Positions 4,200-60,057 of a stretch of 64,000 bases of DNA are shown here, one piece after another. Location: assembly GCA_026545225.1 (NCBI GenBank), contig CM048849.1:16065541-16129540 (forward strand). Reading direction: 5' to 3'. The notes beneath the pieces are model-generated. The model ran no database searches. It saw only the letters and a program-made list of their open reading frames with translations, and was not told the origin of the DNA. The number at the start of each line of letters is the position of its first letter. The stretch's first letter is position 1. This stretch comes from Cornus controversa. Its lineage: Eukaryota; Streptophyta; Magnoliopsida; Cornales; Cornaceae. Position numbers and translations under genes: made by a program.

Positions 4200-4366
4200 G
4201 TGAGATTAAACCCCGATTCTCACACTAGGTGGATTCTTTCTTGATCTTCATTTGCCAGTTTTTTCTGTTTATGAATGTGATCTGTGTTAAATTTTTTATA
4301 GTTCAGTTCACACTAACATAAACATGTATATAATATAAATAACTATTACTATATATGCTCGTGTGA

Positions 4367-4398
<32 letters not shown>

Positions 4399-28900: not shown

Positions 28901-29345
28901 AAGTTGACTTAGGCTTGGGGGAAGATGCCAAGGTAGCTGCTGTTATTTAGAACAGTTGCTGGCACTGGCCTTCTACTAATACCATGGAATGGATGACCCA
29001 TCGTAGTAGTATACCAGAAGACTGTAAACCCTATGCCAGCATTCCTGATAAACTTATATGGCTGCCTAGTAAGGGAGACTTCTCCATTAAATCTGCATGG
29101 GAAGAGTTTAGGCACAAAGTGAGCCCAGTATGCTGGGCAGATATTATCTGGTTTCCTGCTTATATACCTCGGCATGCCTTCATTCTATGGCTTATCACTC
29201 AGAATAGGGTGTTGACCCATTATAGATTGCTGCAATGGGGGACTGTCTCTACTGCTAATTGTATTTTTTGTAGGAGCAGAATAGAGGACAGGGACCACCT
29301 TTTCTTCGAGAGCAGCTTCACTAAGAGGTTATGGGGGGCTCTGTT
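25985..29345 (+). mobile_element. LINE family A, copy 4, cut by the inverted-repeat edge
   Basis: A plus-strand LINE with a short ORF1 tail (25,985-26,080) and then ORF2 from the endonuclease to the zf-RVT domain. It stops abruptly at about 29,345, just after LTKRLWGAL-type sequence; the matching copy at 61.4-64 kb continues past this point (break equivalent near 62,606). The break coincides with the outer edge of the giant inverted repeat, so the 3' part was lost or displaced in that rearrangement. Confidence 0.85.
26090..29345 (+). pseudogene. LINE-A ORF2 pseudogene (endonuclease, RT, zf-RVT)
   Basis: The endonuclease starts at 26,090 (GIWNIR, then a shift) and holds AGDFNAVRYKHERIGG near 26,481-26,530; the terminal motif reads SEHALIVL, with Glu instead of the usual catalytic Asp. 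The reverse transcriptase (27,495-28,538) is open for 347 codons, with FRPFSVCNILYK, KVDLRKAYDTDSW, GRCLRQGDPMS and the catalytic box LIFADD (28,083-28,100). The zf-RVT domain (28,984-29,340) shows FCRSRIEDRDHLFFE. Stops or shifts at about 26,330, 27,038, 27,439, 28,538 and 28,907 inactivate it. Confidence 0.85.
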
Positions 29346-29346
29346 C

Positions 29347-29480
29347 ATACTTGGGAACTACTATCTCTAAGTTCGGAATAGTGGCCTTGGTTCAACTCCT
29401 AGTTGGAAAGGCTGCCAACTCCTTACTTAGATTTCAGGGGGTGGAGGAGGTACACTTGCTGGCTGATAGTGGCCTTGGTT
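29347..29480 (+). other. Left-arm piece of the mitochondrial-like insert
   Basis: The complement of about 50,813-50,946. It contains two copies of AGTGGCCTTGGTTCAACTCC (29,379 and 29,467) about 90 bp apart. Its right end runs into the SMC2 exon at CTGAATGG, as in the right arm; its left end is the LINE break. Confidence 0.55.
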
Positions 29481-29703
29481 CAACTCCTAGCTGAATGGTT
29501 TGGAAAATTGAACATTCTTGATTCAATTTGCTTCGTTTTGGGCATCACTAATTTACAGCAAATTCGAGCCTTAAATCTTTAGGAGCTCTTGTACGAGAAA
29601 GGGCAAGATGGGATTATGAAGGCTACGGTTTCGATTGTGTTTGATAATTCAGATAGGAGTAGGAGTCCTCTTGGTTACGAAGATTGTCCGCAGATTATGA
29701 AAA
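29481..29703 (+). pseudogene. SMC2: SMC2 exon relic, left arm
   Basis: The plus strand reads [24 protein letters not shown], a TAG stop, ELLYEKGQDGIMKATVSIVF and [19 protein letters not shown]. This is the segment just after the Walker A motif of SMC2, the ATPase core subunit of condensin. The GKSN of Walker A is damaged (a base lost before GGA, Ser to Leu here). The TAG that replaces a Gln codon is present in the right arm too. After CAGATTATG the sequence jumps straight into the hAT element, so the rest of the gene is deleted in this arm. Confidence 0.8.
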
Positions 29704-31029
29704 GTTTCATCAGGAAGAGCCCTAGTCCCAAAGGTTGGAGTTCATGCAGACGATCACAGATTCACAGCACAGGTCAGTTCTCTCTCTCCTCCTTCTCCTT
29801 CTTCTTCTTCTTCTTCTTCTTTTTCTCTCTCTTCGTTTTTTTTGTTGGGTGCTCTGTTTTTTTGTTGTTACAGAGTTGCAGTGTTCTTTTCGATGATTTC
29901 TTCTTGCAGAGCCAAAAACCAAAAGGCCTACGCCAAGCCCTGAAGACCTAGTTGCAGAGGAGTTGAAGACACACAGGTCAGTTCTATTTTCTTCTTCTTC
30001 TCTCTCTTCTCTGTTCTTCTTCTTCTTCTCTCTTCTTCTTCTTCTCGGTTCTTCTTCTCTCTCTTCTCTGTTCTTCCCTGTTATTTTTCTTCTTCTTCTT
30101 CTCCTCTGTTCTTCTCTGTCCTTCTCTCTCTTCTCTGTTCTTCCCTGTTATTTTGCTTCTTTTCTCTGTTCTTCTTCTCTCTCCTCTGTTTGTCTACTTC
30201 TTCTCTGTTCTCTGTTCTTCTCTATTCTTCTTCTCTCTCCTCTGTTCGTCCACTTCTTCTTCTCTTTTCTTCTTCTTCTCTGTCCTCTGTTCGTACACTT
30301 CTCTTTTTTTCTCTTTTTTTTTTTGTGCTCTGTTTTTGGCTTTTTCTTCTCTTCTCTCTTCTTATCGTCTCTCTTCCCATAAAAAGATATAACAGTCTTC
30401 TATATTCTTTTTCTCTGTTCTTCTACTGCTGTCTTGTGCTTTCTTTTTTTAAACAGTTTTTCTTTTTCTTTTTTTGGTGCTGTCTTGTGCTTTTTCTTTT
30501 TATAACACACACATATGTATATATATATTTTATTCAATTTTGCCTCTTGGGTTTGCAGTTTGCTTAACTGAGTAGTTCAATTTTTTTTTCCCCTAAATTG
30601 AATGATGTCCTAAATGGCAATTAGTTGTTGCCTCTTGGATTTGTTGAATTAAGTAGTTCAGATTTTTATTCCTCCTAAATTAAATGATGTCCTAAATGAC
30701 AATTAGTTGTTCACTTTTCTCTGTTGGTTTTGCTGTTTTGCCGTGTGCTGTTTGTTTTGCTGTTTTGGTTTCATGCACTATTAGTTTTTGGAGTTGGATG
30801 ATGAATTTATTTTTATGGTTATTAAATTCTTGAATGATATGGTTGGTGGATTTATCTTTTCATGTTTGGTATTAATTTTTAGAATATTAATTATGAGATG
30901 TGAATTCATTTATACTAATTTAATATTTCAATTTTGTGCCTCGCTTCACTTAGGCTCACGCCTCACCTTGCGCCTAGGCTCCAAAGGACCTTGAGTGCCT
31001 TAGTGCGCCTAGGGCCTTTAATAACACTG
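29704..31029 (-). mobile_element. hAT-type non-autonomous element, left arm (one end deleted)
   Basis: The inverted copy of the element at 46,071-47,404. The inner end is intact: AATAACACTG at 31,020-31,029, followed by ATTGCATA (31,030-31,037), the complement of the TATGCAAT target duplication. The outer end is lost in the deletion that joins it to SMC2 at about 29,700. It is filled mainly by a pyrimidine-rich tract and carries no transposase. Confidence 0.7.
29768..30530 (+). repeat. Polypyrimidine tract (CTT/CTCTGTTCTTC repeats)
   Basis: Over 500 bp are almost purely C/T on the plus strand, built from CTT runs and a recurrent CTCTGTTCTTCTTCTCT-type unit. It is interrupted by ~100 bp of normal sequence at 29,870-29,960. 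Long Ser/Phe/Leu-rich open frames here are artefacts of composition. The purine-rich mirror copy is at 46,570-47,300. Confidence 0.9.
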
Positions 31030-33690
31030 ATTGCATACATTTGGGTTACTGTTCTATTCGTGTCAAATTATTAGATATTTAAAATTTTAATATACATCTA
31101 CTAATAAATCACAAAAAAAAAAAAATCGACAATTGAAATGTCGAGTTCTGATTGGGATAGTAACATTCTCTATTACTAGTTTTCTTTTTTGTTAGGTTTT
31201 TGGGAGAAATTGTAAATTCATGAGGGAGATAGTTGATTTTTTGGACATACTGAGAGTTGGGGCCCTATTTTGTCCTTGTGTAGTTTTTGTGGGATGCGTT
31301 TCCCCTTTGAACACTTTCTAATGATACTTTATCAAAAAAAATTGTTGAGTTTTGTTACTTTAGCCATCTTCTTTGTATCCATTTCTTACTGAAGTATTAA
31401 ATGATTTTAATATCAAACTTTAAGAATAATATATTCCATGCAACAAAGGAAGTTCAATTTTCAAATTCCGTTTTAAGACGAACCTTATTTAACATTTTTG
31501 CATTGTCATATTGAAAATTTTGTGTGCTGGTTATGTTTTGAGGGGTCAGCCAAGCTCATCCTAAGGCATAAAACCCTCAATCTAAAGCGCAAGGCCAACC
31601 TAACCTCTAGTTTGACAGGCTTAACCCAAGCTTATATTTTTACACTTGAGTTAGGCTTTGGTTGGTTGGGATATCAATATTTTATTAATAATATAGGTAA
31701 ATGCCGACTTCGTTGGGTTCGGCTTAGGCAAGAGCCTTTTGACAGTTTTCTGTGGTTTCACGTTGGCCAGCCTAATTTGCAATCCTAACTTGGTAAAATA
31801 AAATTTATAAAATCTATAAGAAGGGAAACACAGAGAGTTAGATCAAGCTAGAGAATAATTTAAAACACCCACAACTCGATTCCAAAAGAAATGGTGAGGT
31901 AGAAAACTGTTGTAGTAGGCTGAATATATTGATAATATATATAAAAAAAATTGATGAATACAACTTGGAACAATCCTTTTATAAGCCACAAGGGCTGTCC
32001 TAACAAAGATTCAATCTTAACCCTTTGAGAGGCATACATAGTTTTCTTGCATGGTGTGAAATGAACAAACAATTTATTTGAAGTACATGTTAGTGGTGGC
32101 ATACATCTCATTGAATTTGTTATTGTCTTGTTACTATGTCATGCAGGGCTTTTAGTTAGATTTATTTTCTTTTTGGTTTAATAAAGTGAAGTAATGTGTT
32201 CTTAATCGTGTTATGTGCTTAATTATGTTCTTACTATAAAGTTTTATTTTTTCAGGTTTCTTTGGAGATAGAGGGTGAGAAAAGATCGACAAGGAAATAG
32301 AAAAAGTGGGGATGTTAACACGTGGGTAAAAAAAACGTGAGTTTTGAGTTGAGATGCAAAAAACATAAGAGAAAAGAAAAGGTTGAGAAGAAATATGAAA
32401 TAGTGGAGATGTGATGGAAAAAATTGGAAGAAGGGTTAAAACATCAATTAGGAAAAATATGGAAGAGAGAAAGGAAAAGAAGTGTGATGCTATTGCTGAA
32501 AATCTAAAATTCAACGATCTTAGACTTGCTCATTGTTATCCTATCAGGTATGATGTCATGGTATCTTATTCTCACCAACAATCCAGTTCTTTAATATAAT
32601 ATGTTATATTATTTATGAAAATTTATTTTATATATTAACTAATTATACATGTTTAATTAGATTTATTATCATAATCATTATTCTTTTTGTTTCTTCATTT
32701 GAATTGAATCTGAAATATAAACTATGTTGTTTTGAATCAATTGATTACGTTAAAATCATGGATGATAATTTTTTTTCCTAGTTGGTATACACCTCCCAAA
32801 GAATTGTTTGCCCAAGAGGATTTGATCCATGGACCTAATGATTACTAGGCATTAGGGCCAAGTTCTTTATCCACTTGAGCCAATCTCTTGGGGTCATGGT
32901 TCATAATTTTAATGATGATAGCATTTTTTTTATATATGTATGATTATGTTTATGATTGTGGAAGAATGGTTTTATATGGTTTGTAATGTTTATACATGGA
33001 TGAAGCTTTAGGGTTTATGTTTTTATTGTAGTTTTATGGCAATTGTAAAGGACAAAATAATTGTTGTCCTAGGCCAATTTATGTTTATTGCAATTTATTA
33101 TGTATCTTTTACAAAGTCATGTAATAGTTTGTAAAGAATTCATCTCCAAGGAGATTTCTCAAGTCTCTAACCATGGAGCATGTGCCAAAGGTTTCTTGTG
33201 CATGAAAAAGTTTGAGATTTCTGAAGTCCAAGCAGAGGAGAATTGCTCGTAAAGAACTACGTGGAGATTAAGTTTTTTAGTTGGTTAGAGATATAGGTTA
33301 AATGGGCTTCATCTATTGTTTTATCTTTTCTCTCTTATATTTCATGCATATATAGAAGTATAACCATTATTTTATATTGATGCATATAACATGTTTTAAG
33401 TTGATAATTATTAAATTATGAGAGAGTAACTTGATAAGTTGACTTAATATTTAAATTGGACTTGATTTATTTATAGTAGTTTTCAAAAAGTATTTTATTT
33501 TCAAAATTAATTAAATATTTCTTTTGAAATTATGAAAACAATAGAAATAGAAAGTAGATCTTTTTGAAGATTTTCTTATTTAAAGGTCTCTAATTTAAAT
33601 ATGAAAATTGATATGGATCTAGCTCTCTAAATTTAATAATTATTAAATTAAAATATGGGCAAACATATATGCGTAATTTATTGTGTAGTA
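31030..33690. other. Left-arm non-coding segment with LINE tail and TATA-like site
   Basis: This matches the complement of about 43,400-46,070. At about 31,200-31,342 it holds a LINE 3' tail (GTGGGATGCGTTTCCCC ... TATCAAAAAAAA) related to the family-B end at 59,800-59,860. At about 31,972-31,985, minus strand, is a TATAAAAGG box in sequence that looks like an LTR promoter/leader, but no LTR ends were found. No supported coding sequence. Confidence 0.6.
32771..32893 (-). mobile_element. SINE-like tRNA-derived element, left arm
   Basis: The minus strand carries an A-box-like TGGCTCAAGTGG and a B-box-like GGATCAAATCC about 55 bp apart, and ends in an A-rich tail. Flanking near-duplicates TCATGGATGATAATT (32,756-32,770) and TCATGGTTCATAATT (32,894-32,908) fit a 15-bp target-site duplication. 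The element is short (~123 bp) and its family is not recognised. Confidence 0.6.
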
Positions 33691-36600
33691 TATTGTATTA
33701 ATATGGTTTAATAGTTAGTTAAATAGAATTTTATTTATGTTACATTGTTTATAATTTATAATAAATTATTATTTGTGTTACAAAGTTTATTAGTAATTAT
33801 AGATAGTTCATTATTAGTTACATAGTTAAATAAATTATTATTTAAGTTACAAAGTTCATTATTAGCTAGATAATTAGTTAAATAATTTATTATTTATGTT
33901 TCATAGTTTATTATTAGTTATACAGTTTGATAAATAAAATTATTGCTTATGCTACATAATTTATTATATATTTATTAAATACACTATTATTTATGTTATA
34001 GAATTTGTTATTAATTATATATTTATTAAATAAATGTTTAATAATGCTACAGAATATTAATTACATAATTGGTTAAATAAGTTATTATTTTATTATTTAT
34101 GAATTTGGGTTTTTATTTATGTTCATTAGTTTTAAAAATTCATAATAAATTATTATTTATGTTACATAATTTGTATTTAATAATATATTATTATTTATAG
34201 TGCATAGGGTTTAAAGATTGGGGTTTGGGATTTACGATTTATTATTAGTTACTCATTCTTTTAATTACATAGTTGGTTATGGGTTTTGGGATTTAGGTTT
34301 TTGTGTTTGGAGTTTTAGGTTTGGGGTTTCCGATTCGAGGTTCTGGTTCGATTTTAGTTTAGTTTATTATTTATGTTAAATAGTTTATAATTTATAATAA
34401 ATTTTTATTTATGGTAAACAGTTTATTGTTAATTATATAGTTTGTTAAATAAATTATTATTTAAGCTAAGGTAGTTCATTATTAGTTAGATGGTTAAGTA
34501 ATTTATTATTTATGCTTCATAGATCATTATTAGTATATACTCTGTTAAATAATTTATTATTAGTTACATAGTCTTTTAATTACATAGTTTGTTAAATAAT
34601 TCATTATTTATGTTACATGGTTATATAGTCTTTAATTACATAGTTTGGGGTTTGGGAATTTAGGCTTTTGTGTTTCGAATTCTAGGTTTGAAGGATTCGG
34701 GATTCTGGTTCGACTTTATTAATTATATAGTTTGTGAAATAAATTATTATTTAAGCTATATAGTTTATTATTAGTTAGAACGTTAGTTAAATAATTTGTT
34801 ATTTATACTTCATAGTTCATAATTAGTTATATAGTCAACTAATTAAATTATTATTTATGATACATAGTTTATGTAGAGATATTTATTAAAAAAATTAATA
34901 TTTATGTTACATGGTTTATTATTACTTACATAGTTTGTTAATTAAATTGTTATTAATCTTACATACTTAATTATTAATAGATGTTTGTTAAATAAATTAT
35001 TATTTATGTTACATAGTTTATTATTAGTGACCTAGTTTGTTAAATAAATTATTAGTTACATAGTCTTTTAATTACATAGATTGTTTGGGTTTAGGATTCT
35101 GGTTTTCGTGTTTTGTGTTTTAGTTTTGGTTTTGGGTTTCGGTTCGGTTTTAGTTTGATTTATTATTTATGTTAATTAATTTTAATTCATAAAAAATTAT
35201 TATTTATGCTACATAATTTGTATTTAATAATATTTTATTAATTATGGTTCATAGGATTTAGGGATTGGGGTTTCGGGGTATGGCGTTTGTGGATTTGGGG
35301 TTTAGGAGTTAAGATTATTTATTAGTTAAATAGTCTTTTAATTATAAAATTTGCTCGGAGTTTGGTAATTTGAATTTTCGTGATTCGGATTTTAGGTTTG
35401 GGGTTTCAAATTTGTGGTTTTGTTCGGCTTTAGTTTAGTATATTATTTATGTTGAAAAAAATTTAGTTAATAATAAATTTTTATTTATACTACATAATTT
35501 ATTATTAATTATATAGTTTGATAAATAAATTATTATTTAAGCTACGCAGTCAATTATTAGTTAGATAATTAGTTAAGTAATTTATTATTTATACTATTAT
35601 TAGTGATATAGGCTGCTAAGTAAATTATTATTTATACCACATAGTTTATCAAATATTTATTTAATATATTATTATTTATATTGCATAAGGTAACGATGGT
35701 GTGTCGGGGTTTTGAGTTTGGAGATTTGGTGTTTAGAATTTAGGCTTTATTATTAGTTACATAGTCTGTTAATTACATAGTTTGGTTGGGATTAGAGTTT
35801 TCGTGTTTTGAGTTCTAGGTTTGAGGTTTAGGATTCGGAGTTACGGTTTGGATTTAGTTTAGTTTATTATTTATGTTAAATATTTTTAATTTATAATAAA
35901 ATACTATTTATGATACATATTTATTATTAATTATATATAGTTTGTTAAATAAATTATTATTTAAGCCACATTGTTCCTTATTAGTTAGATAGATAGTTTA
36001 ATAATTTATTATTTATGCTTCATAGTTCATAATTAGTTATTTAGTCTGTTAAATAAATTATTATTTATGGTATGTAATTTATTATTAGTTACATAGTTTG
36101 GGTTTAGGGTTTTGAGTTTATAGATTCAGGGTTTGAGGTTTAGGACTTAAGAATTTATTATTAGTTAAATAGTCTTTTAATTATATAGTTTGTTTGGAGT
36201 CTGGGGATTCGAATTTTTGTGTTTTGGGCTTTAGGTTTGGGGTTTTCGGTTCAAGGTTTTGGCTCGGCTTTACTTTATTTGTTATTTATTTTAAAACGAT
36301 TTTAGTTAATAATGAATTATTATTTATGCACATAGTTTATTATTAATTATATAGTTTGTTAAAAAAATTATTATTTAAGCTACATAGTTAATTATTAGTT
36401 ATATAGTTTGTTAAGTAATTTATTATTTATGCTATTATTACTTATATAGTTTGTTAAATGAATTATTATTCATGCTAAATCGTTTATCAAATATTTATAA
36501 ATATATTATTATTTATTCTGCATAAGGGTTAGAATTTAGGCTTTATTATTAGTTACATAGTCTGTTAATTACATAATTTGTTTGGGGTTTGGGAATTTGG

Positions 36601-37118
36601 GTTTTCGTGTTTCAAGTTATAGGTTTGAGGTTTAGGATTGAGAATTTTGGTTTGGCGTTAGTTTAGTTTATTTTTTATGATACATATTTATTATTAATTA
36701 TAAAGTTTGTTAAATAAATTATTATTTAAGTTTAATGGTTCTTTATTAATTAGAAAGTTAGTTTAATAATTTATTATGTAGTCTGTTAGTTACATAGTTT
36801 GTTTTCGGTTTGAGGATTTAGGTTTTCGTGTTTCTGGTTCTAGGTTTGAGGTTTAAGATTCGAAATTTCGGTTCAGTTCGGCTTCAGTTTACTTTATTAT
36901 TTATGTTAAATATTTTTTAATTTATAATAAACTACTATTTATAATATATATTTATTATTAATTATATAGTTCGTTAAATAAAATATTATTTAAGCCACAT
37001 GATTCCTTATTAGTTATATAGTTAGTTTAATATTTATGTTAAAAAGTTTTTAGTTAATAATAAATTATTATTTATGGTACATAGTTTATTATTAATTATA
37101 TAGTTTGTTAAATAAATT
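33691..37118. repeat. Left-arm AT-rich satellite with telomere-like G blocks
   Basis: Two components alternate. One is an AT-rich part of ~40-60-bp repeats on the theme ACATAGTTTATTATTAG ... TTTGTTAAATAAATTATT. The other is about eight G/T blocks on the plus strand (e.g. 34,200-34,350, 35,250-35,430, 36,110-36,265) full of GTTTGGGG, GTTTAGG and GATTCGG words, most ending in CGGTTTTAGTTTAGTTTATT-like sequence. Block spacing is about 220-440 bp. No coding potential. Confidence 0.85.
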
Positions 37119-37165
37119 ATTATTTAATTATTAGTTATATAGTTAATAATAAATTATTAATAATA
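37119..37165. other. 47-bp spacer at the palindrome axis
   Basis: AT-only sequence apart from two G residues, between the exactly paired 37,103-37,118 and 37,166-37,181. It is itself partly self-complementary (TTAATAATAAATTATTAA), so the true loop may be shorter. Confidence 0.7.
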
Positions 37166-40100
37166 AATTTATTTAACAAACTATATAATTAATAATAAAT
37201 TATGTATCATAAATAATAATTTATTATTAACTAAAAACTTTTTAACATAAATAATAAACTAAAATAAAACCAAACCAGAACCCCGAATCCGAAACCCCAA
37301 ACCAAAAACCCGAAACACGAAAACTCTAATCCCAAACCCAAACAAACTATATAATAAAAAGACTATTTAACTAATAATAAGTCCTAACTAATAAACCCCA
37401 AACTTCGAATCCACAAACTCCAAATCCCGAAACTCCAATTCCTAAACCCTATGAACCATAAATAATAATATAATATTAAATACAAATTATGTTGCATAAA
37501 TAATAAGTTATAATGAATTAAAAACTAATTTACATAAATTATAAACTAAACTAAAGCTGAACCGGAACCCCGAATCCAAAAGCCCAAAACTAAAACCTAA
37601 AATACAAAAACTCGAATCCCCAAACCCAAACAAACTATTTAATTAAAGACAATTTAACTAATAATAAATAATAATTTATTTAACCAATTATGTAACAAAT
37701 AATAAACTATGTAGCATTAAATAATAACTTATTTAACATACTAAATAACTAATTATAAACTATGAAGCATAAATAATAAATTCTTAAATTAACTATGTAA
37801 CTTAAATAATAATTTATTTAACAAATTATATAATTAATAATAATTATGCATCATAAATAGTAATTTATTATGAATTAAAAAATATTTAACATAAATAATA
37901 AACTAAACTTAAACCGAACCGGAACTCCGAATCCAAAACCTCAAACAAATTATGTAATTAACAGACTATGTAACTAATAATAAAACTTAAATTCTAAACT
38001 CCAAACCTGAATCCCCAAACTCAAAACCCCCAAATCCCTAACCCTTAAGCAGTATAAATAATAATTTATTTAATAAATATCTAATAAACTATATAGCATA
38101 TATAATAATTTATTTAACCGATCTATATAACTAATGAACTATAAAGAATAAATAATAAATTAATTAATTAACTACCTAACTAATAATTTACCACGTAGCT
38201 TAAATAATAATTTATTAAACAAAATATATAATTAATAATAAATTATGTATCATAAATAATAATTTATTATTAAATAATTTTTTTTAACATAAATAAAAAA
38301 CTAAACTAAAGCCGAACGGCCAGAACCAGAACCATGAATTCGAAACCCCAAACCTAAAACACGAAACACAAAAACTTGAATAGCCAAACTCCAAACGAAC
38401 TATATAATTAGAAGAGTATTTAACTAATAATAAATCCTAAATCCTAAACCTCAAATCCCGAATCCACAAACTCCAAAACCCAAACTATGTAACTAATAAT
38501 AAACTATGTAACAAAAACAATAACTTATTTAACATACTAAATAACTAATTATGAACTATGAAGCATAAATAATAAATTATTAAACTAACTATCTAACGAC
38601 TAAGTAACGATGTAGCTTAAATAATATTTTATTTAACAAATTATATAATTAATAATAAATATGAATTATAAATAGTAACTTATTATGAATTAAAAAATAT
38701 TTAACATAAATAATAAACTAAACTAAAGCCAAATCGAAACTCCAAATTCTAAACCACAAACCAAGAACCCGAAACACGAAAACCCAAATCCCAAACCCCA
38801 AAAAAACTATGTAATTAACAAACTATAAGGAATAATAAAGCCTAAATAATAATTTATTTAACAGACTATATAAATAATAATGAACTATGAAACATAAATA
38901 ATATATTACCTAATATCTAACTAACATTTAAACTGCGTAGCTTAAATAATAATTTATTTAACAATCTATATAATTAATAACAAACTATGTAGCATAAATA
39001 ATAATTTATTATTAAATAAAAACTTTTTAACATAAATAATAAACTATTTAATTAAAAGACTATTTAACCAATAATAAATAATAATTTATTTAACAAACTA
39101 TGTAAATAAAAATAAATTATGTAGCATAAATAATACCTTATTTAATATACTAAATAACTAATTATGAACTATGAATGAAGCATAAATAATAAATTATTAA
39201 ACTAACTATTTAACTAATAAGGAACCATGTAACTTCAAACATAATTTATTTAAAAACTATATAATTAATAATAAATATGTATCAATGTATCATAAATAGT
39301 AATTTATTATGAATTAAAAAAATATTTAACACATAAATAATAACTAAACTTAAGCCGAACCAGAACTCCAAATTCTAAACCTCAAACCTTGAACCTGAAA
39401 CACGAAAATTCAAATCCCCAAACCCCAAACAAACTATGCAATTAACAGACTATGTAACTAATAATAAAACTTAAATTCTAAAGTCCAAACCCAGAATTCC
39501 CAAACTCAAAACCCCGAAACCCCAATCCCTAACCGTTATGCGATATAATACTAATACATTGAATAAATATTTGAGAAACTATGAAGCATAAATAATAATT
39601 TATTTAACAGACTATATTACTAATAATGAACGATGAAACATAAATAATAAATTACTTAACTAACTATCTAACTAATAATTGCCTACGTAGTTAAATAATA
39701 ATTTATTTAACAAATTATATAATTAATAATAAACTATATAGCATAAATAATAATTTATTTAGCAGACTATATAACTAATAATGAACTATGAACCATAAAT
39801 AATAAATTACTTAACTAACTATATAACTAATAATTGACTAGGTAGCTTAAATAATAATTTATTTAACAAATTATATAATTAATAATAAACTATGTAGTAT
39901 AAATAATAATTTATTATTTACTAATTTTTTTTAATATAAATAATAAACTAAATTAAAGCTGAACCAAAACTATGAATCCGAAACCCCAATCCTAAAGGGA
40001 TTTTTTGCACCTAATACAAACTATAAGGGTGGAAAGTGAACATGAGAGGTGTTTTTTGCACATTTTTCATACTATGAGGGGGTTTAATGCACTTTACCCT

Positions 40101-43100: not shown

Positions 43101-43395
43101 AACAAATTTTATAACATAAATAATAATTTATTTAACACATGTAACATAAGTAATAGTTTATTTAATAAATATATAATAAATTATGTAACATAAGCAATAA
43201 TTTATTTATCAAACTATATAACTAATAATGAACTATGTAACTTAAATAATAATTTATTTAAACAACTATATAACTAATAATGAACTATCTATAATTACTA
43301 ATAAACTTTGTAGCACAAATAATAATTTATTAAAATTATAAACAATGTAACATAAATAAAATTTTATTTAAGTAACTATTAAACCATATTAATAT
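37166..43395. repeat. Right-arm AT-rich satellite with telomere-like C blocks
   Basis: The same repeat as the left arm in reverse orientation: AT-rich units with TTATTTAACAAACTATATAA and about sixteen C/A blocks (e.g. 37,270-37,460, 37,915-38,045, 39,360-39,530, 41,755-41,940, 42,735-42,890). Most are introduced by AACTAAACTAAAGCCGAACC or a variant. By eye this is about twice as many blocks as the left arm. Confidence 0.85.
39995..40098. mobile_element. Short insertion unique to the right arm
   Basis: A 100-bp stretch unlike the surrounding satellite, from AAAGGGATTTTTTGCACC to GCACTTTACCCT. It contains two GTGTTTTTTGCAC / GGATTTTTTGCAC words and resembles the AGGGTAAAGTGCA-type short repeats common in plant genomes. 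It has no counterpart in the left arm, so it arrived after the inverted duplication. Confidence 0.45.
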
Positions 43396-46070
43396 AATAT
43401 ACTACACAATAAATTACTCATATATGTTCGGCCATATTTTAATTTAATAATTATTAAATTTAGAGAGAGCTAGATCCATATGACTTTTCATATTTAAATT
43501 GGAGACCTTTAAACAAAAAAAATTTCAAAAAGATCTACTTTCTATTTCTATTGTTTTCATAATTTCATAAGAAATATTTAATTAATTTTGAAAATAAAAT
43601 ATTTTTTGAAAACTACTATAGATAAATCAAGTCCAATTTAAATATTAAGTCAACTTATCAAACAAGTTACTCTCTCATAATTTAATAATTACCAACTTAA
43701 AACATTCTATATGCATCAACATAACATAATGGTTATACTTCTATATATGCATAAAATATAAGAGAGAAAAGATAAAACAATAGATGAAGCCCATCTAACC
43801 TATATCTCTAACCAACTAAAAAACTTAATCTCCACGTAGTTCTTTACGAGCAATTCTCCTCTGCTTGGACTTCAAAAAATCTCAAACTTTTTCATGCATA
43901 AGAAACCTTTGGCACATGCTCCATGGCTAGAGACTTGAGAAATCTCCTTGGAGATGAATTCTTTACAAACTATTACATGACTTTGTAAAAGATACATAAT
44001 AAATTGCAATAAACATAAATTGGCCTAGGACAAGAATTATTTTGTCCTTTACAATTGCCATAAAACTACAATAAAAACATAAACCCTAGAGCTTCATCCA
44101 TGTATAAACATCACAAACCATATAAAACCATTCATCCACAATCATAAACATAATCATACATATATCAAAAAAATGCTATCATCATTAAAATTATGAACCA
44201 TGACCCCAAGAGATTGGCTCAAGTGGATAAAGAACTTGGCCCTAATGCCTAGTAATCATTAGGTCCATGGATCAAATCCTCTTGGGCAAACAATTCTTTG
44301 GGAGGTGTATACCAACTAGGAAAAAAAATTATGATCCAAGAATATGATTTTAACGTAATCAATTGATTCAAAACATCGTTTATATTTCATATTCAATTCA
44401 AATAAGGAAACAAAAAGAATAATGATTATGATAATAAATCTAATTAAACATGTATAATTAGTTAATATATAAAATAAAATATCATAAATAATATAACATA
44501 TTATATTAAATAACTGGATTGTTGGTGTGCAATGAGAGAATAAGATATCATGACATCATACCTGATAGGATAACAATGAGCAAGTCATAGATCATTGCAT
44601 TGTAGATTTTCACCAATAGCATCACTTCTTTTCCTCTCTCTCTTCCACATTTTTCCTAATTGATGTTTTAACCCTACTTCCAATTTTTTTCATCTCATCT
44701 CCACTATTTAATATTTCTTCTCAACCTTTTTTTTCTCTTATGTTTTTTGCATCTCAACTCAAAACTCACGTTTTTTTCACCCACGTGTTAACATCCTCAC
44801 TTTTTCTATTTCCTTTTCAATCTTTTCTCACCTTCTATCCCCAAAAGAAACCTGAAAAAATAAAACTTCATAGTAAGAACATAATTAAGCATATAACACG
44901 ATTAAGAACACATTACTTCACTTCATTAAACCAAAAAGAAAATAAATCTAACTAAAAGCCCTGCATGACATAGTAACAAGACAATAACAATTTCAATGAG
45001 ATGTATGCCACCGCTAACATGTACTTTAAATAAATTGTTTGTTCATTTCATACCATGCAGGAAAACTATGTATGCCTCTCAAAGGGTTAGGATTGAATCT
45101 TTCCTAGGACAACCCTTGTGGCTTATAAAAGGGTTGTTCCAAGTTGTATTCATCAATTTTTTTATATGTATTATCAATATATTCAGCCTACTACAACAGT
45201 TTTCTACCTCACCATTTCTTTTGGGATCGAGTTGTGGGTGTTTTAAGTTATTCTCTAGCTTGATCTAGCTCTCTGTGTTTCTCTTCTTATAGATTTTATA
45301 AAATTTATTTTACCAAGCTAGGATTGCAAATTAGGCTGGCCAACGTGAAACCACAGAAAACTGTCAATCATGACTAAGCCGAACCCAACGAAGTCGGCAT
45401 TTACCTATATTATTAATAAAATATTGATATCCCAACCAACCAAAGCCTAACTCAAGTGTAAAAATATAAGCTTGGGTTAAGCTCGTCAAACTAGAGGTTA
45501 GGTTGGCCTTGCGCTTTAGATTGAGGGTTTTATGCCTTACGATGAGCTTGGCTGACCCCTCAAAACATAACCAGCACACAAAATTTTCAATATGACAATG
45601 CAAAAATGTTAAATAACGTTCGTCTTAAAACGGAATTTGAAAATTGAACTTCCTTTGTTGCATGGAATATATTATTCTTAAAGTTTGACATTAAAATCAT
45701 TTAATACTTCAGCAAGAAATGGATACAAAGATGGCTGAAGTAACAGAACTCAACAATTTTTTTTTGATAAAGTATCATTAGAAAGTGTTCAAAGGGGGAA
45801 CGCATCCCACAAAAACTACACAAGGACAAAATAGGGTCCCAACTCTCAGTATGTCCAAAAAATCAACTATCTCCCTCATGAATTTACAGTTTCTCCCAAC
45901 AACCTAACAAAAAAGAAAACTAGTAATAGAGAATGTTACGATCCCAATCAGAACTTGACATTTCAATTGTCGATTTTTTATTTTTTTGTGATTTATTAGT
46001 AGATGTATATTAAAATTTTAAATATCTAATAATTTGACACGAATAGAACAGTAACCCAAATGTATGCAAT
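43396..46070. other. Right-arm non-coding segment with LINE tail and TATA-like site
   Basis: The complement of the left-arm segment 31,030-33,690. A TATAAAAGGG box at 45,123-45,132 (plus strand) lies in sequence resembling an LTR promoter/leader (TTCAGCCTACTACAACAG, TTTTCTACCTCACC). The complement of the LINE-B-like tail lies at about 45,755-45,900. No supported coding sequence. Confidence 0.6.
44204..44326 (+). mobile_element. SINE-like tRNA-derived element, right arm
   Basis: Plus strand: A-box-like TGGCTCAAGTGG at 44,215-44,226, B-box-like GGATCAAATCC at 44,269-44,279, and an A-rich tail. The flanks AATTATGAACCATGA (44,189-44,203) and AATTATGATCCAAGA (44,327-44,341) are the same target duplication as in the left arm, so the insertion predates the inverted duplication. 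Confidence 0.6.
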
Positions 46071-46534
46071 TAGTGTTATTAAAGGCCCTAGGTGCACTAA
46101 GGCGCTCAAGGTCCTTTGGAGCCTAGGCGCTAGGCGAGGCGTGAGCCTGAGTGAAGCGAGGCACAAAATTGAAATATTAAATTAGTATAAATGAATTCAC
46201 ATCTCATAATTAATATTCTAAAAATTAATATCAAACATAAAAAGATAAATCCACCAACCATATCATTCAGGAATTTAATAACCATAAAAATAAATTCATC
46301 ATCCAACTCCAAAAACTAATAGTGCATGAAACCAAAACAAATAGAGAAAAGTGAACAACTAATTGTCATTTAGGACATCATTCAATTTAGGGGGAATAAA
46401 AATCTGAACTACTTAATTCAACAAATCCAAGAGGCAACAACTAATTGCCATTTAGGACATCATTCAATTTAGTGAAAAAAAAAATTGAACTACTCAGTTA
46501 AGCAAACTGCAAACCCAAGAGGCAAAATTGAATA

Positions 46535-46568
<34 letters not shown>

Positions 46569-47404
46569 TATAAAAAGAAAAAGCACAAGACAGCACCGAA
46601 AAAAGAAAAAAAAAACTGTTTTAAGAAAAGAAAGCACAAGACAGCAGTAGAAGAACAGAGAAAAAGAATATAGAAGACTGTTATATCGAGAGAAGGGGAA
46701 GAGAGACAATAAGAAGAGAGAAGAGAAGAAAAAGCAAAAAACAGAGCACAAAAAAAAAAAAAGAGAAGAAAGAGAAGAAGTGTACGAACAGAGGACAGAG
46801 AAGAAGAAGAACAGAGAAGAAGAAGTGGATGAACAGAGGAGAGAGAAGAAGAAGAAGAATAGAGAAGAACAGAGAACAGAGAAGAAGTAGACAAACAGAG
46901 GAGAGAGAAGAAGAACAGAGAAAAAGAAGCAAAATAATAGGGAAGAACAGAGAAGAGAGAGAAGAACAGAGAAGAACAGAGGAGAAGAAGAAGAAGAAAA
47001 GAGAAGAAGAAGAAGAAGAAGAAGAAAAATAACAGAGAAGAGAGAGAAGAAGAACCGAGAAGAAGAAGAAGAGAGAAGAAGAACAGAGAAGAGAGAGAAG
47101 AAGAAGAAAATAGAACTGACCTGTGTGTCTTCAACTCCTCTGCAACTAGGTCTTCAGGGCTTGGCGTAGGCCTTTTGGTTTTTGGCTCTGCAAGAAGAAA
47201 TCATCGAAAAGAACACTGCAAGTCTGTAACAACAAAAAAACAGAGCACCCAACAAAAAAAACGAAGAGAGAGAAAAAGAAGAAGGAGGAGAGAGAGAACT
47301 GACCTGTGCTGTGAATCTGTGATCGTCTGCATGAACTCCAACCTTTGGGAGATGAAACTTTTCATTTTTGCTGAGGCCTCTTCTTCGCGCCTTTAACAAC
47401 ACTG
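46071..47404 (+). mobile_element. hAT-type non-autonomous element with 8-bp TSD, right arm
   Basis: The 1,334-bp element begins TAGTGTTATTAAAGGC and ends GCGCCTTTAACAACACTG, giving terminal inverted repeats of about 16 bp whose first bases (TAGTG / CAGTG) fit the hAT end consensus. It is flanked by perfect 8-bp duplications TATGCAAT (46,063-46,070 and 47,405-47,412), the size hAT transposases make. The interior is a purine-rich tract plus TG/GT repeats, with no transposase, so it would need an enzyme from elsewhere. It lies in an SMC2 intron. Confidence 0.8.
46570..47300 (-). repeat. Polypurine tract in the right-arm hAT element
   Basis: Almost pure A/G on the plus strand for about 500 bp (GAAGAAGAAG, AACAGAGAAGAAG units), the mirror of 29,768-30,530. 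A GT run (46,548-46,569) beside it replaces the AT/AC run of the left copy. The Glu/Arg-rich open frames are compositional artefacts. Confidence 0.9.
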
Positions 47405-47454
47405 TATGCAATATATCATCCCTAAAAAGCATTGTCGAAAAAGACTTACCTCCG

Positions 47455-50400
47455 TTGTAGAATCAATAGTTTTGCAAACAAAGGTTGAACCAAACACGTA
47501 TTCCATTGCACTCTGCATATACATCAAGTTTTTGAAAATTTCATAATGAATAAAGTTCAATTCCATTAACCCAAACAAGAGAGAGAGGAATCATGAAAAG
47601 CTAGTTACTCTTCCACTCATTCACTGCTGTGATTATTCACCTAAAGAAAGGGTAAAAAAAAAGTGTGGTACGCAGTTTTACAAGAATAAGAAAAATATTC
47701 ACTGCATCATTTTAATAACTGTCTTATGCACAAAACAGTAATTAAAAACTTGTCGTTGATCTCCAAAGCATCTGATAACATTACATATGCATCCAAAATT
47801 CAATAAGCAACAAAAGCGAGTAATAACATCAATAATGCACTCGGAATCTTACATTCAGTTCCTTATCATATCCAACTAAAGAAAGTGCCACTTCTACATT
47901 CCCATCACCAACCAAGTATTGTAAAATAACAACCTTCTAGCAAATACACACACTAGCAAGAGATATCAGAAATGAAGAAAACCAAGTGTGGAGACAAACC
48001 AATCTAGCGGCAGCATTTTGAACTCTATGTGGAACAGGATGGGATTGAATTTTGTTTAGAGGAATAATTGTCACTCTTCTTTGAAGATCACCATTTTGCA
48101 ATTGCTGCTTTCCAGTATTTTTTGTGCCCACAATATTAAACACATTTCCACCAGCAGCAACCTGAACGTAAACTCAGTGTGAGAGTCTAGCTATAAGTGT
48201 ACTTAGAGCACGTTATAATTTGGAAATAAATTATACCACTTTTAAAATAAACGAATTATAAAATATCATCCAAAGCTAACCTCTAAGGCTGTCATTGTGG
48301 AGCTATCCCTCACTTTAAAGAGTTTAGCAACCACACCTTTCACCTTCAACCTATCAAAATTCTTCATAGGGTCACGATATGTGAACTCAACATTTGCCAA
48401 TTGTGCAGAAAGAATCCAAATTTTATCTTTCAACCTTTACACTATCTCCAACTCAGCTACACGGTCCTGAAGAAAAATTTACAATATAGAAAAGAAAGAA
48501 AAAAAAAAGTAAAATGACCAAATTGAGATTCATTTACCATTTAAGGTGCAAGTTATTGCAGAATTGCCAATTGAAGAGCATACCTTTTATAAAGCTTCCA
48601 TCTGTCCCTCTCTTCATATGAAAGAGATTCCAAGGCCATTTTAACGTCTTCTACATCTTTTCTTCTAACATTGAGCTCATTATCTACAACAACAGCTTCT
48701 TCAGGCTTTGATAATAGCTGATGCTTTGTGTCTTTCAGCTCTTTCTCAGAATGGTTTATTTTTGTTTTCATCTCTTTCAGTTCTGTTTCTGTACTTCCGA
48801 CGGCTACTTTTGCATCACCTAGTTGATTTTCAAGGCACTTCTCATTTCCACTACTCTTACCAGCTATTACTGTCCATAGTAATCACAGCAACATTTTCAA
48901 GAAAAACATTCTGTAAGGATATGAATGCAATAAACAACAATCTATACGCAGTTCAATGCACAAAACAGGCGTGTCTAGGCAATCTTACCTGGTATTCCTT
49001 TTCATACTCTTCCAAACTCTTAAGATCAGCTGCCCCATCTTCAGCGCCTTTACAGCAGAGGCCCTCTCTTCTAAAGACTGTTTGGATTCTTCAATACTTC
49101 TCACTATCTGGCAACATTAAAGCATGAAGTCTAGATGGTATGTTAAACAGAGAGAGACACTTCACAAAACAAATAATTAATGGCATAAATACAATAACTT
49201 GTGATTTTAAGATAATAAAAATTCGATATCAGGTCATCCCCTCTTACCTTTTCAGCATTCTATTTTTCATTCATAAGAATTTCTTCTTGATTTTTCAGTA
49301 CAGACGCTTCCCTCACAAGATCACGAGAAAGAGCATCTACTTTCTGTCGCAAACTTTTTACTTCCCCCGCCCTTGCTTCTTTTTCAGCAGTCAACTTTTC
49401 TACTTCCCGTTTCCATCTCCTGTAACTCCAAGCGCATCCTTTCCGCATTATCATCAATCTCAGATATTTTTGCCTTTTTTCTTCCACCCCTTGAACTGCA
49501 GTGTCTCTAATCTTCTCAGGCAATGCAAAACCTTTTGAGTCAATCTCTGCATTGCCATTAGACCATTGCATGTATTGCATCCGCTCTTTCCTCAACTTCT
49601 CCAAAGCAGGAAGTTTTTCCTGGTCAAGAAGCTTGCCAATCTCATCAACCTTACTTTGTTTTTTCTCAAGCGTCTTCAGAGCAGCCTCTTTCTTTGCTGC
49701 CTCTTCAGGCATGGGGGATTCATATTTAGGACCTTAGTAATGCGCCCTTGCATGATGAGAAAATGTGGATTATTAACATTAAGCTGCACTGAATGGAAAA
49801 GATTTTGTACTCGACTAGGCTGTGCCAGGTGCCCATTGATTGAGTATTTATTCCTTCCACCAACCACGATCTGCAACATAAGCAACAATCTCTAAGACTA
49901 TCTAATTGAAATTTTCTTAAAGCAACTGAATAAATTAGACCTGAATAAGTATGATGACAATCCCTGAAATACTAACCGAATGTTTGATAAGCATATGAAA
50001 CTATTTTGCATTTTTTTTTCTCAGACAATGAACTAAATGGTACAATATTGATTACCATACACACCAGCATCATTCACAAGTACAATAGAAAAACCTGCAA
50101 AAGCTACTATTTACTGAAATCCAAAAATTAAGTAGCTAAAATTAAGGTTGTATAACACTTCGAAGTCCCCAGAAAATGTGCTAATTTCGAATCAATTATG
50201 GTATAGAAAAATAGGCCATTTATAATCTTATATTTTTTGACATGATAGAAAGAGAAGATACATTCCTAGTACTAAGGAGCTCATCCTACGAAATTTGAAA
50301 TGTTTTCGGAAAACCTCTAAAATCTCCACTTAATAGAAGACTACCACAAACTAGATGGTTTCATAACTTCCTTTTGGCCTTCCATTTTTGTAAATTACCA

Positions 50401-50812
50401 TAGAAAAAGGAAGTGGCTTCACTTGTAATTTTTTTTCTTTTTTTTGGCAAATTGACAATATGTTAACGAACCCATTGATAAAATTTATTAATTAAGACCT
50501 ATCAGTTGGAAAATTGAAGCATATAATCACATGGATATCAATAAAAGTTACCTTAAAAATTAAAAATCAAACTCCCACATACCTAACGGGTGACCATAAT
50601 CTGCGGACAATCTTCCTAACCAAGAGGACTCCTACTCCTGTCTGAATTATCAAACACAATCAAAACCGTAGCCTTCACAATCCCAGCTTGCCCTTTCTTG
50701 TACAAGAGCTCCTAAAGATTTGAGGCTCGAATTTGCTGTAAATTGGTGATGCCCAAAACGAAGCAAATTGAATCAAGAATGTTCGATTTTCCAAACCATT
50801 CAGCTAGGAGTT
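47455..50812 (-). pseudogene. SMC2: SMC2 (condensin ATPase subunit) pseudogene, right arm
   Basis: Minus-strand exons in correct order with usable splice sites: 50,812-50,583 (after Walker [21 protein letters not shown]), 49,870-49,247 ([38 protein letters not shown]; coiled coil), about 49,107-48,992, 48,910-48,560, 48,470-48,280, 48,165-47,990 (hinge: RRVTIIPLNKIQSHPVP) and 47,560-47,455 (AMEYVFGSTFVCKTIDSTTE). SMC2 pairs with SMC4 in condensin to compact chromosomes. Defects: N-terminus and Walker A missing or shifted, TAG stops in exon 1, loss of the GTRMYE-type segment in exon 2, and many later shifts. The C-terminal half with the signature motif and Walker B is absent. Introns are kept, so it arose by DNA duplication. 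Confidence 0.9.
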
Positions 50813-52780
50813 GAACCAAGGCCACTATCAGCCAGCAAGTATACCCCCTCCACCCCCTGAAATCTAAGTAAGGAGTTGGCAGCCTTTCCAGCTAGGAGTT
50901 GAACCAACGCCACTATTCCGAACTTAGAGATAGTAGTTCCCAAGTATGATATGAAATAGGAAGGAATCGAGTAAAGGCCTTGTCCTACTCTAATACAAGT
51001 AGGTAGTGTTAGCTACCTTAATCCCCTGAAGTAAGGATTTGGAAGCTCAGGACCAAGAGTCACTGTAGTTGCTATAGCCAGGGGAGCTAGTCCCGTAACT
51101 GTGAGCAGTTCGAGTTCTAATTCTTTACAAGACAGATGGGAACTGTAGCTAACAAGTGTGCCCTAGGTGTAATCCTACTTATAATCTTTCTACTATATTA
51201 GCATGACGGGTGCCAAGTTATTAGTAGCTAGGAAGCTAAGCAAGTAGTAGTTCACTTCAGGTCAGGGCATAAAGCTACAAGTGCTATTTGCGATCGTGAG
51301 ACAGAGGGCAGAGTGAACTTGTTATATAGGTAGTCGTGCGTCTTAATAGATCTTCTATACTTGTAGTAGCAGTAGTGGGTGAATTGGTTTCTTAGGTAAG
51401 GTTTACTTTCTTTATTAGAAGGATAAGCACAGTTATTGCTCTTTGTCCCAACATTCAGCCGAGGTAGGCTACTAACTTGTTTGTTAGAAGTAGTTAACGA
51501 ACGGAAATAAGGCCATTTGTTGTCTATAAGTGAAAATTGGATGGATGCCCGCTCCTTGGATATGCTTTCAAAAGGGTTATTTTCATGCGTGCTAGTGTTC
51601 GTAGTCTATTGGTTTTTCTGTTCTCGTGGGGGAAGGCAAGATTGGAGCATCTACAAGTTGAGAGTGTGCTCGGGCAAGTGGGCTAACTAGAAAGACTAGT
51701 AACGGGATTTGCCTAAGGGGAATGGAACTCTTGTTTGAGAACTTTAGCTTCGGACTTAGGTTAGCTAGCTCAGCTTCTCCTATGGCTATTTGGATTAAGG
51801 AAGTACGGTAATGCGCAGACAAAGAAGGCCTAATAATGGTGAGTCGAATCAGGCGCGACAGCCGTTCCAATGGCTTTTATGCCACCGTTCAGGCCTTATT
51901 TAAGATAGGAGAATGAGGTTCAAGCAAGAGACCCTGGGTTTTGCCTAAAACGAGTAGCAAACTCTGGTTTCCGTGCACGCGTGGAAGGCAACTCTGCTTA
52001 TCAAGCAAGCATAGCAAAGGAATCCCCCCTATTCCACCCCCGCCCCCCCCCCCCCCCCCCAATCCATTAGTTGTAGCTCGAAGTTTGCCCTTAGTTGTCT
52101 AGAAGTTAGCTGTTTGGCATGCGTAGCTTGGGTAGTCTTAGTAAGCAATTTGGATTGCTCATGCGGGGCTTTGGAAATTAAGTAACCAGGGAATTCATAG
52201 TCTAATCTTCTAATCCAGCTCGAGAAGTTTTTTTGTTTAAAAGTAGATTGGGAGTTCAAGCAGATGTTAAATTAGGGTGAGGTTGACTATTCTAGTCTAC
52301 AGGCCACTTAGCTAAACGAAATCCTTAGTTTCAACTTTTCAGTGAGTCTCGTTATCTCCCAGTCGTAACTGTACCTTGTGAACTCTAACAAGCTCTCTTT
52401 GCTTCTCCCCTGGCTTAAAAAAGCCATTAGTTAAACCCCTGACCTATTGGTCAGTAGCTGAACCCCCTCTAATGAGCTGGTGAATCACCTGGTGTTGTTA
52501 GTTCGCTCTCATGAACCAATTGTGCTACTTTCAACCATGAGTAGCGGGTATTAGGTGAGGGGATACCTGTAGAACCGTTTAATTATGGAACAAGCTACGC
52601 ACATTACATGTCCTTGAAAGCTATCGTTAAGGAAGTCTCAAAGATAGGAGAACAAGATCCTGGCACTAGCGTGTTAAAGGAAAGAGGGGTACTTATTAAT
52701 GTGGGAAAAAGACGTATAAAAATCGTATGAATCAATAAGACCTGATACCATGAGTTGATGTGTAGATATCACGGGTTCTT
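50813..52780. other. Possible nuclear insert of mitochondrial DNA
   Basis: Base composition changes sharply to near-balanced GC, with none of the AT-rich or TE texture on either side. The style (GCTAGTCCCGTAACTG, GAATCAGGCGCGACAGCC, GAACCCCCTCTAATGAG) is that of angiosperm mitochondrial intergenic DNA. It starts inside the SMC2 P-loop exon. I recognise no mitochondrial gene, so the call rests on composition and feel. It contains an 18-base C run (52,043-52,060). Frames at 51,592-51,870 and 52,029-52,259 have no recognisable motif. Confidence 0.4.
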
Positions 52781-53224
52781 CTCTACTTTTTTTTGCTCTC
52801 AAACAGAGTAATCACAAAGATCTCCAATTAATGAAATGAGGTATTAATTGAAATCCTAACATTAGAAAACATAAATTTCATGACAAATGAGCTAAACTTC
52901 TTCTAGTGAGGTATTATATGAACCAAAAACATGGGATCAGTCAACCTACTTTTCCGAAGCACTACAAGACAAATCATTCTAAATGATGGAATCACCACAA
53001 GAAAATAAATTTTTTTTACATAATATCAACATACATCCAACAAATCCGCTCTAATCCCATATCCTCACTTGTCTTACACTCATACATTGTTAAGTGGCAT
53101 CCTTCTCAACAACTTTATTTTAAAGGAAAATTAGATTTTGGTAACCAAATTGAATTTTTCTTTAGAATGACCTTAAACTCAAGAAAAGACATACAATCAC
53201 CAAGCTTAAAAAATAATTACCAAT
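52781..53224. other. AT-rich intergenic DNA, no gene seen
   Basis: AT-rich sequence up to the LINE-B target-site duplication. With the LINE removed it continues smoothly into 59,877 onwards. Confidence 0.5.
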
Positions 53225-53449
53225 AAGTAACCATTTAAAGCAGCAACAAGCCTCTCTCATCCCTTCACATCCCCTCATTCCCCCGTTACTATACTTCCAG
53301 GCAACTGGTGCCACTAACTCCATTACTTATCCCTTAAATTTATCCTCGACAACCGCAAGAATCATAAACCCAATTCCATCATCATCATCATACCAACTAT
53401 TCGCCGCATCTTCAAGACCTTCTCACTTCAAATTTAGATCCTCTAATCT

Positions 53450-56190: not shown

Positions 56191-56193
56191 CAT

Positions 56194-59790: not shown

Positions 59791-59876
59791 CTTGCTTGTT
59801 GTGTTTGGGACGCGTCCCCCTCTTGGGCGCCTTTTATGAAATTTTACTTATCAAAAAAAAAAGTAACCATTTAAAG

Positions 59877-60019
59877 TTTAATGTCCTAAATGCACTTCTC
59901 CTAATTTTCACTTCTTCACTATGTCATTTTTGCAATCAACCTAAGCAATAATGAAGATCCTCCAATAAAACGGACTTTAACACCCAATAAAACATTGTGA
60001 TCGATCTTCATGACACTGT

Positions 60020-60057
<38 letters not shown>

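Follow-up and report, generated by a model that had tools for sequence, protein, structure and literature searches.

The window considered here is a stretch of 64,000 nucleotides of the Cornus controversa genome (C5:16,065,541-16,129,540, contig CM048849.1, in an assembly of 772 Mb and 61 contigs), and it holds the greater part of a large palindrome, the two inverted arms of which face each other across a satellite. All positions are given in window coordinates, with position 1 at C5:16,065,541, while values smaller than 1 or greater than 64,000 refer to sequence beyond the window on the same contig, of which 80 kb around the window (20 kb on the left and 60 kb on the right) were also analysed. 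The structural evidence comes throughout from the assembled sequence. The gapped mirror chain of the arms spans from -4,105 to 105,447 (109.6 kb), i.e., 4.1 kb to the left and 41.4 kb to the right of the window. The left arm (plus strand) occupies 1-36,785, with the loss junctions at 29,345/29,346 and about 29,700 included, and continues to -4,105 (C5:16,061,435), and the right arm (minus strand) occupies 40,448-64,000 and continues to 105,447 (C5:16,170,987), the blocks of the two arms standing in mirror order. The first-pass annotation of this DNA had described the arms as reverse complements out to a break at 29,345/50,948. The inverted repeat is indeed large and far above chance in the self-comparison of the window (30,761-34,944 against 46,339-42,114, 93.2% over 4,266 columns), but it is not exact, with the substitution identity of 96% in three blocks and 93% at the satellite edge, and the supposed outer break is the junction of an 11.65-kb left-arm loss, beyond which the pairing restarts at 27,920-29,347/64,000-62,603 and runs on to the outer ends of the chain.

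The two left-arm losses are best seen against the elements nested in the arms. A reverse-transcriptase segment of a long interspersed nuclear element (LINE) lies at 27,920-29,345 on the plus strand, where it is cut inside the zf-RVT domain, and its mirror copy at 62,603-64,000 on the minus strand has a zf-RVT reading frame that continues to 62,079. At 29,345 the left arm passes directly from the cut LINE into a block of 355 bp (left copy at 29,346-29,699, plus strand, holding the start of SMC2-like sequence; right copy at 50,595-50,949, minus strand, placed by the mirror chain), whereas the right arm has 11.65 kb in between (50,950-62,602, without a left partner, with a microhomology of about 1 bp). 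The second segment missing from the left arm, 47,351-50,594 (3-bp ATG microhomology), holds most of the SMC2-like fragment and the 5' end of a hAT-like element. Both gaps are best read as losses, because the LINE is cut inside zf-RVT on the left and the target duplication of the hAT-like element is intact on the right. Two independent LINE insertions were considered and rejected, since the copies share a frameshift (read by eye) and the mirror chain continues past the LINE.

The SMC2-like gene fragment (47,450-50,790, minus strand, limits read by eye) contains introns and stops and matches 6qj1_A and the SMC2 chain 9f5w_A by phmmer (E 2.3e-21 and 5e-21, respectively), the Pfam matches to SMC_N and SMC_hinge being below their cut-offs; it had been reported in both arms, which holds for the right arm and, in the left, for nothing more than the SMC2-like start within the 355-bp block. 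The hAT-like element (46,071-47,404, minus strand, about 1.3 kb, with a TTC/GAA-rich array of about 0.4 kb) ends in the termini C/TAGTGTTRTTAAAGG and is bounded on both sides by the 8-bp target duplication ATTGCATA, which together with the short terminal inverted repeats agrees with the hAT family consensus. It had likewise been assigned to both arms; the right arm bears it entire, and the left arm retains only its 3' part, with the target copy at 31,030. The unit resembling a short interspersed nuclear element (SINE) was correctly placed in both arms, at 44,215-44,290 (plus strand), with an A box and, 54 nt on, a B box, and as a mirror copy at 32,882 (minus strand). The reading frames scanned yielded mobile-element domains, the weak SMC matches and sub-threshold matches but no recognisable intact gene, and the window contained no Rfam match at the gathering score and no tRNA. 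Further out in the left arm, a segment of about 4.5 kb is directly duplicated (4,511-8,007 and 9,076-13,006, 94-98% identical); it includes pieces of LINE and a 0.4-kb unit that occurs three times, and a weak Pfam match to NADH dehydrogenase subunit 6, below the cut-off and with no match in PDB, was observed at 4,568-5,131.

The centre of the palindrome consists of facing arrays of 52-bp AT units, in accordance with the initial description of an AT satellite. The left array (33,790-37,142, minus strand) combines these units with G-rich islands of 7-bp periodicity, and the right array (37,143-43,310, plus strand) has the same units in the opposite orientation with C-rich islands, so that the strand orientation switches once, near 37,142; inverted repeats made of tandem units occur in the satellite core only. 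The periodicity of the C-rich islands is strong (lag-7 z 18), and the commonest heptamer class is AAACCCC (185), while the CCCTAAA class was counted 63 times versus 28 expected and at most 51 in 300 simulations. The islands of 33,790-43,310 thus carry heptamers one base from the plant telomere repeat, in arrays that face each other as at a telomere fusion; with AAACCCC dominant and the CCCTAAA class in the minority, an origin by telomere fusion was kept as a lead only.

The exact 16-bp pair 37,103-37,118/37,166-37,181, on which the axis had been placed, is present, and 37,103-37,181 is a local hairpin of facing satellite units. The interval of about 47 bp inside it, however, separates these two units and not the arms, as it had been understood, for the collinear pairing in mirror register, followed from outside inward, ends at about 36,785/40,448, where the arm ends are 3.7 kb apart. 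The mirror position was the best match for 40 of the 48 tiles outside 36,785 and for only one of the six inside. A looser gapped BLAST match extends to 37,037/40,274 (82.7% over its whole length), and therefore about 3.2-3.7 kb of satellite lie between the arms. This central satellite without a collinear partner (36,786-40,447) comprises 0.36 kb on the left and 3.3 kb on the right (37,143-40,447) of the switch, and the AT units, inspected at the spacer junction for short inverted homology, are self-matching on both strands.

Outside the satellite, the arms are mostly 95-97% identical and not above 99% along their whole length. The Kimura two-parameter distances between them are 0.044 in the LINE block, 0.041 in the 355-bp block, 0.037 in the 4-kb inner block and 0.072 at the satellite edge, and the substitutions amount to 3-5% in most blocks, to 1.7% in one (-1,990 to 2,237) and to zero over 6.8 kb near the left outer end. 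The differences are mostly substitutions (298 versus 38 gap events in four blocks), and the small gaps are balanced in three blocks, with 17 events missing in the left and 13 in the right arm. In three blocks pooled, with the satellite edge excluded, C-to-T type differences were commoner at CG and CHG (47/388) than at CHH (84/1,632; Fisher p=3e-6), an excess that fits methylated DNA; the suggestion that silenced DNA protects the structure is to this extent consistent with the data, and the protection itself may be a part of the setting discussed below. General homogenisation from arm to arm was found unsupported in the three window blocks (P of the longest identical run 0.74, 0.88 and 0.08; dispersion 1.44, p 0.012).

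A second copy of the palindrome (hereinafter C, and that of the window W, with L and R for the left and right arms) lies on C5 in inverted orientation, 1.49 Mb away, and was analysed near 14.61 Mb with 120 kb around. Its outer ends are those of W with exchanged flanks (over 60 printed bases, one end is identical and the other has one difference), and therefore an inversion is needed somewhere. The left-arm junction of the 11.65-kb loss is common to both copies, but the SMC2 block is retained in the left arm of C, the 3.25-kb left-arm loss thus being private to W; the left arm of C has in turn lost most of the segment matching 2,237-27,838. The unpaired central satellite of 3.3 kb is present in both, the spacer of 36,786-40,447 being collinear though inverted in C (p 0.022), so that an unpaired spacer of the kind proper to fold-back inverted duplications was found in the two C5 copies. 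Since the duplication on C5, the left arms look faster evolving than the right ones, with W_L-C_L against W_R-C_R distances of 0.022 and 0.0093 in the LINE block and of 0.0254 and 0.0085 in the 355-bp block. In the right arm outside the window, 76,350-79,684 is absent at the same place in C, where the flanks join with a 5-bp overlap (C5:14,652,113-14,652,117), as an insertion that duplicates 5 bp of its target would leave them; a part of it matches the C10 core at 99.25%. A repeat of about 575 bp (L014:7057-7631) has many genome copies at 94-99% identity and is therefore probably young.

When the informative sites of W_L, W_R, C_L and C_R were read one by one, they fell into two opposite arrangements along the arms. 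The direct grouping (W_L with C_L and W_R with C_R) was supported by 40 of the 40 sites in the LINE block and eight of eight in the 355-bp block, whereas the swapped grouping (W_L with C_R and W_R with C_L) prevailed in the inner block (19/22) and in the outer block (25/31). Inward, 29,726-31,035 has seven direct sites and one swapped, and 32,142-33,690 has a single direct site (32,589) followed by 19 swapped sites and two that set W against C, which places the inner ancestry switch at 32,589-32,621. In the outer block, 25 swapped sites and three of the W against C kind are followed by three direct innermost ones, and the outer switch falls between -3,143 and -2,588. A crossover between palindrome arms inverts the intervening DNA, as in the sex-chromosome palindromes of primates, and the site patterns are as would be expected from such crossovers in Cornus. 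In addition, 1,707-8,500 (plus strand; the right partner lies outside the window) is a tract of 6.8 kb with two small indels and no substitution between W_L and W_R, versus about 255 expected at the 3.75% of the neighbouring block, and over 5,476-8,441 both arms are 0.81% (0.0081) from C_R; in the assembly, this looks like a recent conversion between the arms. Two swap points and one tract thus bear the mark of arm exchange in their site patterns.

Related inverted pairs were found at other loci, contrary to the idea of a one-off structure. The genome search with the SMC2 block gave 29 matches, with inverted pairs at five loci, namely C, two places on C7 (C7a and C7b), C1 and C10 (one minus and two plus copies), besides single-strand copies (C5:14.467 Mb and three C6 sites) and the 355-bp remnant in W_L. 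With the inner block (at least 52 matches; the best 40 of 1,658 candidates scored), inverted pairs were obtained at W, C, C7a, C7b, C1 and C10, i.e., at least six loci on at least four contigs, and single-strand copies at C5:14.464 Mb and on C6 at 14.058 and 14.307 Mb among the matches scored. The segment 53,000-53,240 (the best 40 of 1,138 candidates scored) is found on both arms of C7b among the matches listed, consistent with the C5 left arms having lost it secondarily. Between the SMC2 query positions 3305 and 3327 lie about 1.6 kb in C7a and C7b (both arms) and in one C10 copy, and 5 kb in C1_L, whereas all C5 copies listed have the two positions side by side, a difference thus common to the two C5 arms.

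At C7a, C7b and C1, the arms are separated by satellite, and the C1 probe contains a switch of the satellite orientation about 120 bp from its midpoint. Overlapping plus and minus matches of the axis query were at first candidates for recurrent axes and were dropped, the query being self-complementary, so that one unit matches both strands. Skew flips inside the arrays are a sounder sign of facing arrays; they were seen in three of the eight loci profiled (L023, L025 and L007), while in L027 and L028 the sign changes only at the array edges and the interior of L024, L026 and L006 shows no change. The flank of the satellite at 43,500-45,000 is a dispersed repeat, with 81-87% identity at many places on several contigs among the matches scored. 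At C8:13,858,000-13,873,999 (L023 and L035) there is another inverted satellite, with arms 90-92% identical in gapped alignment and with short flanks that match the window at 32.2-34.1 kb and 43.62-43.86 kb (81-90%).

Taken together, the locus is rather probably an old palindromic segmental duplication, neither transposon nor artefact, that was seeded in the satellite and copied later, and the arms of which exchange sequence. Its formation would have begun with a break in the AT-rich, strand-asymmetric satellite, repaired by fold-back synthesis or by sister-chromatid fusion into two inverted arms of tens of kilobases. Fold-back replication and breakage-fusion, both named at the outset, remain live alongside sister fusion; fold-back and sister fusion carry most weight together and are not separated, the former being favoured because the spacer is of published size and was present before the C5 copies parted. 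Human fold-back inverted duplications have a single-copy spacer of 766-70,466 bp, median 3,428 (PMC3907307). A later loss at the centre would look the same as such a spacer, of which C1 has almost none; its nearly central axis argues that the asymmetry on C5 is rather a later loss across the centre, as in palindromic transgenes (PMC8701086).

Judged by which copies share them, the 11.65-kb loss would have preceded the 3.25-kb one. The palindrome with its flanks would then have been copied into the second, inverted C5 locus, the pattern of which is evident and the mechanism conjectural, and the arm markers of C7 and C1 suggest copying of the whole palindrome among the related inverted pairs at C1, C7 (two) and C10. 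After the C5 copies had parted, two arm-arm crossovers would have inverted the core and the whole unit, and the 6.8-kb tract would have become identical between the arms. Persistence may be due to the asymmetric centre, the divergence of 3-5% over most of the arm length and a presumably silent, low-recombination setting. In its wider form, that one satellite-born palindrome was copied as a unit among pericentromeres, on four or more chromosomes, and that each copy is still being reshaped by arm crossover and conversion, this reading is held tentatively and somewhat short of even chances; formation, spread and pericentromeric position are all reconstructed, and separate origins may apply.

Several observations weigh against the reconstruction. 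The original junction is unreadable, the centre being blurred by turnover of the satellite; unlike the C5 axis, that of C1 falls within a C-rich island, and at C10 the central site probed proved to be a different repeat and not satellite. Among the matches listed, 53,000-53,240 is on one arm only at C7a and C10. The arm phylogeny, for which nine arms shared 910 columns (about 1 kb from each), is star-like. Within it, C7a and C1 show four sites that group arms within the locus and two of other kinds, and the C5 arms, set against the three other loci, show 5, 9 and 8 within-locus sites versus 3, 2 and 0 for the other two groupings combined, both of which fit separate origins. The outer switch is carried by three inside sites (-2,588, -2,306 and -2,201), since from there up to 27,838 the sequence is missing from C_L or C_R; individual sites contradict the switch pattern, and conversion at the edges could mimic an arm-arm crossover. 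The tract of zero difference could be an effect of the assembly. The pericentromeric position is read from satellite clustering only.

The strongest of the rival explanations is that the palindromes are independent, the satellite edge being a recurrent breakage site at which the inverted duplication arose separately on each chromosome, from a segment that had been dispersed beforehand. The arm distances speak for it, as those within loci (C 0.023, C1 0.028, C7b 0.037 and C7a 0.043) are about those between loci (0.028-0.046), and the C5 arms group together, within their locus, against C7a, C7b and C1. The same explanation draws on the local sequence of the C1 axis, different from that of C5, on the one-strand copies at C5:14.46 Mb and on C6 among the matches listed, and on the C8 satellite, with its short shared flanks and its own arms. 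Against it stands the marker 45,052-45,466 (plus strand), which only one of the two arms carries at C7a, C7b and C1. At C10, one arm lacks it and the other gives no information; on C5, W_L, W_R and C_R all have it. The marker may be an insertion or a deletion, and the two C6 copies end before it. The sites grouping the arms by marker type versus within locus were 8:7 for C7b-C1 and 6:4 for C7a-C7b, but 1:4 for C7a-C1, and C7b_L groups with C1_L (0.98). With this mixed support, the pattern is read as copying of whole palindromes between at least C7 and C1, at about the time when the arms began to diverge, while the C5 arms would either have been homogenised later or have formed separately. Independent origins are rather unlikely, although they keep a substantial share of the probability.

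An assembly artefact, whether from a chimeric read, from a hairpin read or from a tail-to-tail join of two haplotypes at the satellite, was rightly raised in the first-pass annotation and has very little probability left. The structure is known from the assembly, the join falls in the satellite, and arms diverged by 3-5% could be the haplotypes of a very heterozygous plant; however, the copies 1.49 Mb apart agree in their outer ends but each have deletions and inversions of their own, C sharing one deletion of W and being without another, inverted pairs occur on other contigs, there is no N in the window or in the analysed loci L001-L028, and the arm differences are dominated by substitutions with the CG/CHG bias. 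Finally, a foldback-type transposon with satellite arrays as its inverted repeats, which the facing tandem arrays at several loci and the dispersed satellite flank might recall, was already disfavoured and is quite improbable, as the pairing runs through the LINE, SMC2 and hAT blocks and tens of kilobases further, and no target duplication appears in the printed flanks of the outer ends, the letters of which differ by eye.

The preferred palindromic duplication is probably millions of years old, and the recent origin considered at first is not borne out. Substitution rates of 7e-9 and 1.3e-8 per site and year serve here as faster alternatives. The slowest rate, 2.5e-9 per site and year, was taken from the willow paper (PMC7023750). 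At 2.5e-9, 7e-9 and 1.3e-8, the arm divergence of 0.039 corresponds to about 7.8, 2.8 and 1.5 million years, which is a minimum because of conversion, and the C5 duplication to about 2.2, 0.8 and 0.4 million years. As to the chromosomal setting, the satellite matches on C4, C6, C7, C8 and C9 lie within 0.1-3.5 Mb per contig, and those on C1, C2, C5 and C10 are not so clustered, among the matches listed. The satellite resembles the telomere-similar satellites near potato centromeres (Tek and Jiang 2004, as cited in PMC8621592) in its heptamers one base from the plant telomere repeat and perhaps in a position near centromeres, although in Cornus the commonest one is AAACCCC, not AAACCCT, and alternates with the 52-bp AT units.

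Among known systems, the nearest found is the pair of palindromes W.P1 and W.P2 of Salix purpurea, whose 20-kb arm sequence, gene-bearing and on a sex chromosome, is more than 99% identical on average (PMC7023750). The likeness includes a plant palindrome of tens of kilobases with a few-kb central spacer (2.6 kb in willow W.P1), a one-arm deletion and arm-to-arm exchange, whereas the less identical Cornus arms hold repeats and broken genes where examined, the centre is satellite, and inverted pairs of arm blocks occur on at least four contigs. The literature search, limited to listings and the openings of abstracts, returned the willow case and no palindrome dispersed over plant chromosomes, which is not proof of absence. 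The human fold-back cases resemble the Cornus locus in the inverted duplication with a few-kb single-copy spacer but are patient rearrangements, many beside a terminal deletion (PMC3907307), whereas the Cornus palindrome is interstitial, old and multi-copy, and its spacer may stem from later central loss. In mouse transgene palindromes stabilised by central deletion, central asymmetry also accompanies stability, the junctions being experimental there (PMC8701086), while the Cornus asymmetry is deduced from the satellite register. Arm-arm gene conversion is shared with primate sex-chromosome palindromes, as described in PMC7023750 and PMC5704215, unlike which the Cornus exchange is patchy and intact genes were not recognised in the scanned frames.

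Discussion of large palindromes has mostly centred on sex chromosomes, on which their maintenance is ascribed to gene repair. In Cornus, repeat-rich palindromes, perhaps pericentromeric, are found on at least four contigs; their losses can be ordered, and arm exchange has been mapped at two points. A single plant genome offers access to two questions: how a long inverted repeat can survive over millions of years, and whether palindromes travel from chromosome to chromosome as units or re-form repeatedly at a fragile satellite.

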